Source: Pelagibacteraceae bacterium AG-464-P07
GTDB taxonomy: Bacteria; Pseudomonadota; Alphaproteobacteria; Pelagibacterales; Pelagibacteraceae
Length of the DNA: 64,000 bases
Assembly: GCA_003211695.1 (NCBI GenBank)
Contig: QCSA01000002.1
Location: 82,590 to 146,589, forward strand
Direction: 5' to 3'
This document shows positions 44,473 through 58,070 of the stretch, piece by piece (position 1 is the stretch's first letter; each line of letters starts with the position of its first letter). The position numbers were made by a program, and so were the translations under genes. Below the pieces are notes generated by a model, which worked only from the letters and a program-made list of their open reading frames with translations, was not told where the DNA came from and made no database searches.

Positions 44473-44751
44473 TTATAATTCCTCTGGTTTACCTTTGGGA
44501 TAAGTAGGTTCAATAATAAATTCTTCCCCTGTATCGTTGTTTTTACATCTTGCCGATAACCAATCGTATTTAAAATTATTCGCAACAACAAAATCATATA
44601 ATACATTGAGTGTATTATTGTCTCGAGTTCTCAAAAGTAACTTTTGTTTGCACTCTTCCATAGTTTTAAAATTATTATCTAATACAAAAGTTTTTTGCGT
44701 ATTCATTGGGTCTTGCCCAATAAGATAAGCCAGTATTATAATTTTAAACAT
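44473..44751 (-). CDS. Small hypothetical protein, possibly secreted
   Basis: A 92-aa protein not recognised. The first 13 residues are hydrophobic (MFKIIILAYLIGQ) and could be a short signal or anchor. Two Cys are present, one at the EECKQK segment and one in SARCKNND, which could form a disulfide if exported. Start and frame are plausible, with A+T use like its neighbours. It lies between the EamA gene and the HD-domain gene, on the same strand as the latter and 29 nt downstream of it. Confidence 0.55.
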   Translation of the reverse strand: MFKIIILAYLIGQDPMNTQKTFVLDNNFKTMEECKQKLLLRTRDNNTLNVLYDFVVANNFKYDWLSARCKNNDTGEEFIIEPTYPKGKPEEL

Positions 44752-44780
44752 TATCTTTATTCTTAAACCAATCAGGAATT

Positions 44781-45296
44781 TTAAGATAAGGTGGTTTTGG
44801 ATATAATCCTATCGTGGTTGTTTTCATTTATCAATTGAGAAGTAATTAAATCTCGGTAATCATCAATTTTTTTCATTTTAATATTTGGTATTTTTGCATC
44901 ATCATCATATTTTCTAAGAATTATTGCATCTTTATAAAATTTTAATGAAGTAAAATTTCGAGATTCCTCATCGTCCATTATTCCTCCTTGAAGTACTAAA
45001 CTAATTTTAGAAGGATCTGATAAAATATCATAATATGATTTATTTCGGCAGAGATATCTTTTGGCTTGAACATGTAGTTTAATGGGTTCAGTGACTTCTG
45101 GTTTGAAATAATCTTTTAAAAAACCAAATCCTACTTCTTCATGTTTTCCATCCAATGATTTTAAAACCAATAAATTAGGATCCTCAATAACAAAATGGCC
45201 ATAGTCGTGAAGTAAACAAGCACAAATAAATGATTTGAAAGAGTGTTTTTTTTCTGCCAACATTGCTGTCTGTATCATATGATCAGATATTGTCAC
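44781..45296 (-). CDS. HD-domain oxygenase of the PhnZ/TmpB type, start codon in doubt
   Basis: HD-domain protein close to the diiron oxygenases that cleave hydroxylated aminophosphonates. Visible metal-ligand regions are DHMIQTA, LLHDYGHF, GKHEEVG, LHVQAKRYL, LQGGIMDDEE and LRKYDDDAK. The track start is GTG at 45296, but the in-frame codons before it encode FYIGEKV, which supplies the YxxE pair that closes over the PhnZ active site. From the stop at 45321-45323 to that Tyr there is no ATG, GTG or TTG. Either translation starts at an unusual codon such as ATT, or the gene has lost its 5' end. The facing neighbour is a truncated aldehyde dehydrogenase. Confidence 0.7.
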   Translation of the reverse strand: MTISDHMIQTAMLAEKKHSFKSFICACLLHDYGHFVIEDPNLLVLKSLDGKHEEVGFGFLKDYFKPEVTEPIKLHVQAKRYLCRNKSYYDILSDPSKISLVLQGGIMDDEESRNFTSLKFYKDAIILRKYDDDAKIPNIKMKKIDDYRDLITSQLINENNHDRIISKTTLS

Positions 45297-45414
45297 TTTC
45301 TCACCAATATAAAAATTTTTTTAATTTGATAATTATATATTATTTTATCAACTATATGCACGGACAATAGATCCTCGAATTTAATTAATTAGTTTTACCT
45401 CTACAATATGATAA

Positions 45415-45708
45415 TACTTAGAAAATAAAAAAGATGAAGCAGAAATCCCATTTGAAACAGAAGATGAAGCAATTAAAATTACCAATGATACAGAATATGG
45501 CCTTGGCAACTATTTACAAACTGAAGATAAAGAAAAGGCAAAAAAAGTTGCAAAAAAATTAAGATCGGGAATTGTTTATATAAATGGAAAAGCCGGAGAC
45601 TCCGGAACACCTTTTGGCGGATATAGACAATCTGGCAATGATCGCGAAGGAGATACTTGGGGACTAGAAGAATACCTAGTGGTAAAAACGATTACTGGTT
45701 GGAAATGA
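45415..45708 (+). pseudogene. C-terminal remnant of an aldehyde dehydrogenase
   Basis: An open frame without a start codon encodes IPFETEDEAIKITNDTEYGL, then RSGIVYINGKAGD, PFGGYRQSGNDREGDTWGLEEYL and a stop. This is the last 90 or so residues of an ALDH (about 480 aa), ending two bases before the HisN-like gene. The catalytic Cys and Glu and the NAD domain are missing. Upstream of the open stretch there is a stop and no coding sequence. It appears to be the tail left by a deletion. Confidence 0.85.
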
Positions 45709-48382: not shown

Positions 48383-49510
48383 TTATTTTTTTAAAAAAAT
48401 TAATCTACCAATAATTTCATCTCTATCAATATAATAACCTTGCAGATGTCTATGTCCTGAATTTGTACCAAAGGCAGTTCTGCCGTGCAAAACTCTTCTG
48501 TTATTAAAAGAAAAGATATCTCCTGGGTTAAGCCTGAACTTAATTACAAATTTATCATCATGCAATAAATTACCTAACTTATGATGAGCTTTATAAACCC
48601 TTTCCATCTCACCTGGATGACAGTCTAATGCATCCATTGTAGCAACACTAAACCTAATATCATTATAATCATTATCTTTTGTCAAAGTAATAGCAGGAGC
48701 ATGAAAAATTCTAATTGATTCTTGTGTGTAATCGTTGTCTTTGAATTTAAGAGGTATACTCACTAAAGTTTCAAAAATTTCTTTTTCATTCTTTCTTAAA
48801 TAGTCAGCAACTGCAAAACCATCTACAGCAGAAGATTGGCCTCCCTCAGCAGAATTAATTAAACAATGTAAAAATTGATAGCCTGGAGGTGTTTCAAACC
48901 AAGGTAAATCCATGTGATTTCTTAATGCATGTGCTGTATAAGCGGAGTTATTTGGTTTTGGAATATTAATAACCTCAAAAGGTGTTTTAAAAAAAGTCTC
49001 CCTTATACTGCCTATTCTATTTAAAACTGGGAAAGCAGACTTTTTTTCTATTGGAGCATTTTTAACAATTGCAATTCCATTATGATGAAGAAGCTCAAGC
49101 CATTTTATCAAACCTTTATCGCTATCCATTATTTCGTCGTGTTCTACTTGTACGGTTGAAAGTTTTGAATTGAGTGAATTATCCCATAAATCGTAAGGGG
49201 AAATATATTTTTTTTTGTTATTAATTGTGTAGCAATTTTCTCTAAGCCATTTTTGATCATAATAACTAGTGTGATTTCCTTCATTCCATTCTATTTCTAA
49301 TTTATCTTCTGCGTTGATTTTAAATTGCTTAGGGCTAATATTTGTCGAAACTTCTAATAGATTAAACATTCTATGTCTTGAATCTTTATCCCAAACCGTC
49401 GAACAATTGTCTCTTAGCCACATGAAATTAAAATTACTTTTTTCTCCGTCGTTCCATTCAATATCTAATGAAGAATCATTTGCTGAAACTTTTGAAATAG
49501 TTGTTGTCAT
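48383..49510 (-). CDS. Gamma-butyrobetaine dioxygenase-like 2OG/Fe(II) oxygenase
   Basis: A 375-aa member of the BBOX/TmpA group, hydroxylating gamma-butyrobetaine to carnitine or a related trimethylammonium compound. It has the N-terminal DUF971 zinc domain (LDIEWNDGEKSNFNFMWLRDNC, about residues 15-36), then the TauD-like core with the HxD iron ligands in LRNHMDLPWFE and the distal His in NNRRVLHGRTAF, followed by the 2OG-binding Arg region. TmpA, which hydroxylates trimethylaminoethylphosphonate, belongs to the same group and pairs with HD oxygenases; an HD gene lies 3 kb upstream. Nearby carnitine catabolism genes favour gamma-butyrobetaine. Confidence 0.82.
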   Translation of the reverse strand: MTTTISKVSANDSSLDIEWNDGEKSNFNFMWLRDNCSTVWDKDSRHRMFNLLEVSTNISPKQFKINAEDKLEIEWNEGNHTSYYDQKWLRENCYTINNKKKYISPYDLWDNSLNSKLSTVQVEHDEIMDSDKGLIKWLELLHHNGIAIVKNAPIEKKSAFPVLNRIGSIRETFFKTPFEVINIPKPNNSAYTAHALRNHMDLPWFETPPGYQFLHCLINSAEGGQSSAVDGFAVADYLRKNEKEIFETLVSIPLKFKDNDYTQESIRIFHAPAITLTKDNDYNDIRFSVATMDALDCHPGEMERVYKAHHKLGNLLHDDKFVIKFRLNPGDIFSFNNRRVLHGRTAFGTNSGHRHLQGYYIDRDEIIGRLIFLKK

Positions 49511-56057: not shown

Positions 56058-57020
56058 ATGTCTAACATAATTGCAAGGGTAGCAGTAATTGGAACAGGGG
56101 TAATTGGTGCTGGTTGGATTATTAGATGCATCGCACACAATAAAAAAGTTATAGCTTTCGACAAAGATTTTAAATTAAAAAAGAAATTAATTTACGAAAT
56201 TAAACGAACTTGGCCCTATGTTAAAAAATTATTTAACAAAAAAAAACTTAATTTAAAGAATTTTAAATTTGTAGACTCGATAGAAAAAGCTGTTAAAAAC
56301 GCTGATTTTATTCAAGAATGTGCCACGGAAAACTATAGTCTAAAAACAAAACTAATGCACAACATTGGAAAATATGCAAAGCCTAATGCTGTAATTTTAT
56401 CTAGTTCTTCGGGGCTATTACCATCAAGAATTTATTCGAGATGCAAAAATCCAAAAAGAACTATGATTGGCCACCCTTTTAACCCTGTTTATATGCTTCC
56501 AGGAGTGGAAATTGTTCCAGGAAAAAAAACTCAGAAATCATACATTAATAAAGCGAAAAACTTTTATAAGTCAATTTCTATGAGTCCCTTATTGGTAAAA
56601 AAAGAATTGCCTGGATATTTAGCTGATAGATTACAAGAGGCTTTATGGAGAGAAGCATTGCACATTGTAAATGAAGGATATGCAAGTACTGAAGATTTGG
56701 ATAGAGCAATAGAAGACGGTCCAGGTCTCCGATGGTCTTTAATGGGAATCTTTTTAACTTATCATCTTGCTGGAGGAAAAGCTGGAATGAAACATATGCT
56801 CGAACAATTTGGTCCAGCATTGAAATTACCTTGGACAAAATTAAAAGCTCCAGCTCTTTCAAAAAAACTTTCATCAAGAGTAATTGCAGGAACTAGAAAA
56901 CAAGCGCAAGGTAAATCTGTTGAAAAAATTTCAAATATACGTGATGAATATTTAGCTAATTTGCTGAAAATGAGAAAAAAATTTGAAACTAAGCTAAAGT
57001 TAAATGTTCTTCTTCGGTAA
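56058..57020 (+). CDS. cdhA: L-carnitine dehydrogenase
   Basis: NAD-dependent oxidation of L-carnitine to 3-dehydrocarnitine. The 320-aa 3-hydroxyacyl-CoA-dehydrogenase-like protein has the NAD motif VIGTGVIGAGWIIRC (about residues 10-24), QECATENYSLKTKL, the catalytic SSSSGLLPS and GHPFNPVYMLPGVEIVPG, and the carnitine-dehydrogenase-like EDGPGLRWSLMGIFLTYHLA. This last block distinguishes it from acyl-CoA enzymes. It would feed the BKACE and thioesterase encoded 4-6 kb upstream. Confidence 0.88.
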   Translation: MSNIIARVAVIGTGVIGAGWIIRCIAHNKKVIAFDKDFKLKKKLIYEIKRTWPYVKKLFNKKKLNLKNFKFVDSIEKAVKNADFIQECATENYSLKTKLMHNIGKYAKPNAVILSSSSGLLPSRIYSRCKNPKRTMIGHPFNPVYMLPGVEIVPGKKTQKSYINKAKNFYKSISMSPLLVKKELPGYLADRLQEALWREALHIVNEGYASTEDLDRAIEDGPGLRWSLMGIFLTYHLAGGKAGMKHMLEQFGPALKLPWTKLKAPALSKKLSSRVIAGTRKQAQGKSVEKISNIRDEYLANLLKMRKKFETKLKLNVLLR

Positions 57021-57071
57021 TATTTTGATTTCTAAAAAAAACAACTTTATGCTCTAAAAGTAAATTATTAA

Positions 57072-57161
57072 TTATCCTGAAATTTTTTGCGGAAGTACCG
57101 CGTTAAGACTTACTCCATCAATTTCTGCGCCAAGTGCTCCCGATAGCAATTTAACCTGCAT
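57072..57161 (-). pseudogene. N-terminal remnant of a TauD/TfdA family dioxygenase
   Basis: A 29-codon frame encodes MQVKLLSGALGAEIDGVSLN then AVLPQKISG and a stop. The SGALGAEIxGVxL sequence is the standard N-terminus of TauD/TfdA 2OG-Fe(II) dioxygenases (about 280 aa); the rest, including all iron ligands, is missing. It lies just behind cdhA on the opposite strand, in an otherwise non-coding 248-bp gap. Confidence 0.65.
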
Positions 57162-57244
57162 AATCTAAGCGCAAAGTTATCCCTCTCATAAATATTTGTT
57201 ATCAAAAAATTTATGGTAAAAAATATGAAAGCCTAATTATTTTG

Positions 57245-57287
57245 TCGAAAGATTGTTAAAATTATTAACTATTTTAACAATTTTCGA
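57245..57287. promoter_or_regulatory. Long hairpin overlapping the stop of the 78-aa membrane protein gene
   Basis: tcgaaagattgttaaaat (57245-57262) pairs with attttaacaattttcga (57271-57287), a 17-bp stem with one bulged G and an 8-nt loop. It includes the last five codons and part of the stop of the 57269-57505 gene. No U-tract follows on either strand, so a message-stabilising structure is likelier than a terminator. Confidence 0.6.
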
Positions 57288-57505
57288 TAAACAAAGATTA
57301 CAGCAAATATAATTATTAAGGCCGCAACCCCTTGATCTCCTATACTGTCCAATAAAGTAATAAGATTTTTTGTTACCTGTGACCCAAAAAAAGCCACATC
57401 AGGTCCGAACAATAATTCAGCAAAAACAGAGACAGCTAGTAAAAGAACACCAAGCTCAACAAACTGTCTTAGGTAATATTTAATTATATTAATCCAATTT
57501 TTCAT
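57269..57505 (-). CDS. Small two-helix membrane protein (paralogue of the 71-aa protein)
   Basis: A 78-aa hydrophobic protein of no recognised family. Helix 1 covers about residues 16-37 (ELGVLLLAVSVFAELLFG), then a short glycine/proline segment with FFGSQVTKNLITLLDSIGDQG and helix 2 (ALIIIFAVIFVYRKLLK). It aligns along most of its length with the product of 57622-57837 (LLG/LLF, VPFVGG/VAFFGS, LGDAGIVGL/IGDQGVAAL). A strong Shine-Dalgarno ggagggt lies 6-12 nt before its ATG. The gene ends inside a long hairpin. Confidence 0.7.
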   Translation of the reverse strand: MKNWINIIKYYLRQFVELGVLLLAVSVFAELLFGPDVAFFGSQVTKNLITLLDSIGDQGVAALIIIFAVIFVYRKLLK

Positions 57506-57537
57506 TATAAAACCCTCCTAAACATAATTGTGCTACC

Positions 57538-57566
57538 CTATCCTTCTTGGTGTAGGGCTAGGATAG
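57538..57566. promoter_or_regulatory. Hairpin between the two small membrane protein genes
   Basis: ctatcct (57538-57544) and aggatag (57560-57566) form a 7-bp stem with a 15-nt loop in the 116-bp spacer, ahead of the Shine-Dalgarno of the 78-aa gene on the - strand. It may be a weak terminator for the upstream gene or a leader structure. Confidence 0.35.
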
Positions 57567-57621
57567 CATCAATACAATAATCGTTAGTTTATAAAAAAAA
57601 TAAACAACGAGTTTTGATAAG

Positions 57622-57837
57622 TTACTTATAAAAACCTAAGATTATAATAGCAGCTACTAATCCAACTATTCCTGCATCACCAAGTCCTTGGACTAATCCT
57701 ACTATATTATCTGCTATGCCTCCTACAAATGGAACATTTCCACCTAGAAGAGAAACGACGATTCCTAAACCAAGCAGTGCTATAACTACACTGGTAAGTG
57801 ATCTAACCGTTCCTGTGAAGCCTGCTAACATCTTCAT
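57622..57837 (-). CDS. Small two-helix membrane protein, Gly-rich
   Basis: A 71-aa hydrophobic, Gly/Val/Leu-rich protein of no recognised family. Helix 1 is about residues 13-31 (LTSVVIALLGLGIVVSLLGG), followed by VPFVGGIADNIVGLVQGLGDAGIVG and helix 2 ending IIILGFYK. Start choice is firm: the ATG follows an almost perfect Shine-Dalgarno (agggagga) by 5 nt. It is upstream of its 78-aa paralogue on the same strand. Size and amphipathic glycine pattern would suit an oligomeric membrane protein, but no function can be claimed. Confidence 0.72.
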   Translation of the reverse strand: MKMLAGFTGTVRSLTSVVIALLGLGIVVSLLGGNVPFVGGIADNIVGLVQGLGDAGIVGLVAAIIILGFYK

Positions 57838-58070
57838 AACATCCTCCCTTATTATTTTGACTTTCTAACAGAACTACGAATCGCAATCCATAGTTAATGA
57901 ATCCTTCTACCACACTATATATAGATAACCACAAATAAATAACTAAAATAAGGTAGTAAAATAGAGGTTTTTTAGGATTTTAAAGCTTCTAGTGATTCGG
58001 GAACAATTAACGGGCGTGATTCTTTTATACTGGAATTTAAGTTATAAATTTCTTTCTTAAATATTAATAA

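Follow-up and report, generated by a model that had tools for sequence, protein, structure and literature searches.

The window considered here, the whole 64-kb stretch of a SAR11 genome, carries on its reverse strand an open reading frame for an HD-domain oxygenase of the PhnZ/TmpB diiron type. Named relatives place the genome in the SAR11 family Pelagibacteraceae. The features at and around the frame are as follows:

44762-44827, reverse strand: 5' end of a MetE-like gene (22 codons, MKTTTIGLYPKPPYLKIPDWFK), merged in another frame with the HD gene's 3' tail
44781-45296, reverse strand: body of the HD oxygenase without the YxxE motif; GTG start, 171 aa; 161 bits with TIGR03276 and 139 bits with NF049941, both below cut-off
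45293-45361, reverse strand: N-terminal segment in another frame, from GTG 45359-45361, reading VHIVDKIIYNYQIKKIFILVRK and ending at TGA 45293-45295
45300-45311, reverse strand: Y-I-G-E codons (the YxxE gate) in the frame of the body, 5' of the annotated GTG
45311-45322, reverse strand: A7T5 tract, site of the frame break, with one base fewer than the aligned relatives
45321-45323, reverse strand: TAA in the frame of the body, a product of the frame break
45428-45444, no strand: approximate junction of the deletion that removed TmpA and the 5' part of the aldehyde dehydrogenase (ALDH) cluster
45445-45708, forward strand: C-terminal remnant of the ALDH, 87 residues and a stop, its 5' part deleted
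48383-49510, reverse strand: gamma-butyrobetaine-dioxygenase-like (GBBH-like) protein by carnitine-type genes, 30% identical to TmpA
56992-57161, reverse strand: 5' relic of a TauD-like dioxygenase gene, 56 codons, frame broken near 57103

The body of the HD protein finds TmpB (6NPA) as its best match in the PDB (E 7.9e-25) and also aligns with PhnZ (4MLM; E 9.6e-22). Alignments with these structures and with SAR11 relatives show all the metal ligands (H...HD...H...H...D) to be intact. We scored the protein against the curated families Phn-HD (TIGR03276), TmpB (NF049941) and hydroxymethylphosphonate dioxygenase; the scores with TIGR03276, NF049941 and NF052439 are 161, 139 and 126 bits, whereas the respective cut-offs stand at 214.6, 300 and 300. 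As the intact SAR11 relatives likewise fall below the curated cut-offs, the subfamily is evidently a divergent one. In the characterized enzymes the tyrosine (Y24 of PhnZ, Y30 of TmpB) binds the second iron until the substrate arrives, whereupon the glutamate of the YxxE motif contacts the substrate (PMC8177086). With TmpB, the (R)-1-hydroxy-2-trimethylaminoethylphosphonate oxygenase (6NPA), the window shares an encoded YxxE and HD metal-ligand motif, and the HD gene of the relative G042 adjoins a true TmpA (6NPB, E 1.5e-134); the window differs in that its N-terminus is out of frame, no TmpA was found in the genome and its HD protein, like the intact relatives, stays below the cut-off of the TmpB family. 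PhnZ (4MLM, 4N6W) has the same fold family, the YIGE loop and the ligands in common with it, but scores lower than TmpB, and the genomic surroundings are those of a TmpA/betaine-aldehyde system rather than of PhnY.

The initial annotation had placed the tyrosine and glutamate of this gate upstream of any standard start codon, and here it was right: the GTG start of the called frame excludes the YxxE. Immediately 5' of that frame, the in-frame sequence reads TAA AAA AAT TTT TAT ATT GGT GAG AAA GTG (*KNFYIGEKV), with the tyrosine codon at 45309-45311. Only AAA, AAT and TTT separate it from the TAA, and ATG, GTG and TTG are indeed absent from this interval, as had been reported. The YIGE codons are hence cut off from standard starts by the in-frame TAA and the loop lies outside the translated HD protein. 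The pattern is no chance occurrence, as it aligns with the YxxE of both PhnZ and TmpB, in agreement with the family originally assigned, and the residues preceding it are conserved in relatives. The ATT codons earlier offered as possible starts reduce to a single in-frame ATT at 45306-45308, which is 3' of the tyrosine, so that initiation there would still omit it.

Relatives provide the full-length N-terminus for which a comparison had been proposed. In the GTDB relatives examined, among which one locus (L047) is cut by a contig end in this comparison, the start codons (ATG, GTG, less often TTG) lie 17-18 codons before the tyrosine in the same frame. These 17 codons are free of stops in all 82 scorable loci (in L117, too, they stand open ahead of the YIGE). 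The annotated GTG can accordingly be rejected as the norm of the family. In the window, the frame upstream of the HD body encodes VHIVDKIIYNYQIKK from the GTG at 45359-45361, which sits where the relatives start. This segment is colinear with the N-termini of G042 (VHIVDKIIKSYQTNNNLYIGEKV) and G169 (MHIVDKIINNYQTNNDLYIGEKV), each a single open frame, and with that of G056 (MNIVDEIINKFKTNNSLYIGEKV). Its TGA at 45293-45295 overlaps the GTG of the called body as GTGA. An alignment of the DNA places one net gap relative to these relatives in the A7T5 tract. In the closest of them, G169, the HD gene is intact, and the match, at 89% DNA identity over the region, spans 653 bp of G169 and 652 bp of the window. 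Since a single base, in the tract, makes up the whole difference in length from this intact relative, the defect of the HD-oxygenase gene is, on the evidence of sequence comparison, a one-base frameshift. It breaks the frame against the intact orthologues of G169, G042 and G056, a disrupting mutation of the kind by which pseudogenes are recognized. Thus, the family and the missing YxxE of the initial annotation stand, whereas neither of its explanations fits: the only in-frame ATT cannot restore the tyrosine, and the 5' end, far from being deleted, is complete upstream in a different frame. The case is an ordinary one, a frameshift that has left the start codon and N-terminus recognizable in the adjacent frame.

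A single base would thus be gone from an A/T run in the first 17 codons of the HD gene, with its normal start and N-terminus persisting out of frame with the body. Translation from the normal GTG is predicted to end after 22 codons at the TGA overlapping the downstream GTG, and re-initiation at the latter could at most yield a body devoid of the Tyr/Glu gate. We also considered the C-terminal extension of the HD protein as a second defect and rejected it, as it is present in G169, which shares the MetE-like 5' fragment at the 3' end of the HD gene; another genome of the genus, G002, has the entire MetE-like gene (L157:7041-8075). Between the EamA gene and the HD gene there is a 92-aa frame (44473-44751, reverse strand) with no Pfam match, absent from the locus of G042.

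The neighborhood of the gene has been reduced as well. A complete cluster in G121 has the HD gene divergent from TmpA, followed by hydroxyisobutyrate-dehydrogenase-like (HIBDH), ALDH and inositol-monophosphatase-like (IMPase) genes. G042 has a similar cluster, with a TmpA that exceeds the curated cut-off for this family and matches the solved structure of TmpA at E 1.5e-134. The intergenic DNA beside the HD gene persists in the window as far as about 45430, where it runs into the codons for the final 87 residues of the ALDH; these share 93% identity with residues 390-476 of the 476-aa protein of a relative (G056), and the monophosphatase gene follows. The 2-oxoglutarate dioxygenase partner TmpA was not found in the assembled genome, which is 83% complete; the best match, at 30%, is the GBBH-like gene at 48383-49510. 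The latter is an unlikely TmpA: it scores higher with the NCBIfam model for gamma-butyrobetaine dioxygenase (neither score reaches its cut-off), its neighbors are of the carnitine type, and it shares only 30% identity with SAR11 TmpA, although its best PDB match is nonetheless TmpA by a small margin. Most of the TmpA-TmpB-aldehyde dehydrogenase cluster hence appears to be gone from this SAR11 lineage by deletion. In the G169 locus (L155, contig C12) the intact HD gene has no adjoining TmpA and lies directly beside a HIBDH-like gene.

There is a second type of HD gene in SAR11. In 71 of the 80 SAR11 HD relatives it forms an operon of a TauD-like dioxygenase (275 aa), the HD oxygenase (178 aa) and a GMC enzyme (526 aa) of the choline-dehydrogenase type, often with genes for a beta-keto acid cleavage enzyme, a thioesterase and an apparent ABC transporter nearby (L048-L124; examples are L033:7056-10006 and L161:4766-7718). 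The same operon, with an HD gene of this second type, occurs in one genome of the window's genus. Its gene content suggests an oxidative phosphonate route to a betaine-type aldehyde and phosphate. While phnZ has already been reported in Pelagibacterales, our literature searches found no description of this operon. In the window, the relic of the TauD-like gene of this operon, a second phosphonate-type dioxygenase, borders on about 1 kb in which long frames are absent (57021-58070), and the genome's best match to the choline dehydrogenase reaches only 42%. This second, TauD-type HD system is, to judge from these remains, also eroded in the window genome.

What is observed at the locus is a frame break, a conserved start position and partner genes missing from the assembly. 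Given the large-scale deletion of the TmpA-TmpB-ALDH cluster in the lineage, we favor as the probable explanation a real and recent frameshift, that is, the decay of a phosphonate-oxidation gene within a decaying locus, the pathway being presumably no longer needed. We infer that the break is present in the cell and not in the assembly only, and that the HD activity has been lost. In support, only the C-terminus of the ALDH is left, TmpA was not found, and TauD survives as a relic, while the cluster of G121 is intact. Against it, the body gives no clear sign of relaxed selection, with a normal dN/dS of 0.15 against G169 (12 synonymous and 10 nonsynonymous changes on the window branch, 12 and 9 on that of G169), and retains every metal ligand. 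Three columns invariant in seven relatives are changed in the window's HD protein, with dN/dS unchanged. Further, G169 keeps its HD gene intact though no TmpA adjoins it, and, the window genome being 83% complete, TmpA may be encoded in what the assembly lacks. The normal dN/dS implies either that the break is recent or that it is an error of assembly, and the intact ligands and normal dN/dS fit a very recent mutation and such an error alike.

The latter alternative, in which the gene is whole in the cell and the consensus is short of one base in the A7T5 tract, is unlikely; the initial annotation had allowed for a sequencing error. In its favor, homopolymers are a usual site of indel errors, the assembly is a draft in 46 contigs, and the body has a dN/dS typical of purifying selection and intact ligands. 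However, we used the homopolymers inside the window as a control for the rate of indels, and 191 of them with at least 7 bases lie inside intact frames of the 64 kb, so that indel errors throughout the assembly are unlikely. The truncation of the ALDH and the TauD relic also exceed single-base errors, and the residue before the tyrosine is Phe in the window as against Leu in 82 of 82 relatives, so the tract bears substitutions as well.

Still less probable is a gene that remains functional because slippage of RNA polymerase or the ribosome on the A7 run puts some product into the frame of the body. Such bypass has been measured in the laboratory in repeats of 3-8 bases (PMC3812077), and AT-rich endosymbionts are known to restore reading frames by slippage at poly(A) (PMC5009743); the normal dN/dS would be in keeping with it. 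The window resembles those frameshifted genes of AT-rich genomes in having a single-base indel in an A run near eroded genes, but its run of 7 is shorter than in the usual natural cases, which mostly involve long A runs, and SAR11 is free-living rather than endosymbiotic. Moreover, the tract is not conserved: a run of at least 7 occurs in its region in only 2 of 82 relatives, at other codons and in frame, whence a programmed frameshift as a feature of the family is rejected. With the pathway partner missing as well, rescue of some HD protein by slippage is possible but unsupported; were it true, slippage would supply a little full-length oxygenase in a free-living bacterium, with the break persisting under purifying selection. 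Least credible, to the point of being negligible, is a rare non-AUG start. The lack of a standard start in frame might speak for it, but AAA, AAT and TTT alone lie between the TAA and the tyrosine, the ATT comes behind the latter, and relatives start at ATG, GTG or occasionally TTG 17-18 codons upstream.

The recent decay of the gene, as we prefer to read it, removes a false lead, namely an oxygenase with a non-standard start. It also illustrates how an ORF caller hides a frameshift through its choice of a downstream GTG, such that automatic counts of phnZ/tmpB in SAR11 could score this HD frame as functional. The TauD-HD-choline dehydrogenase operon is of more interest than the frameshifted gene itself; the latter documents how phosphonate oxidation is being lost piece by piece in a single lineage of SAR11.
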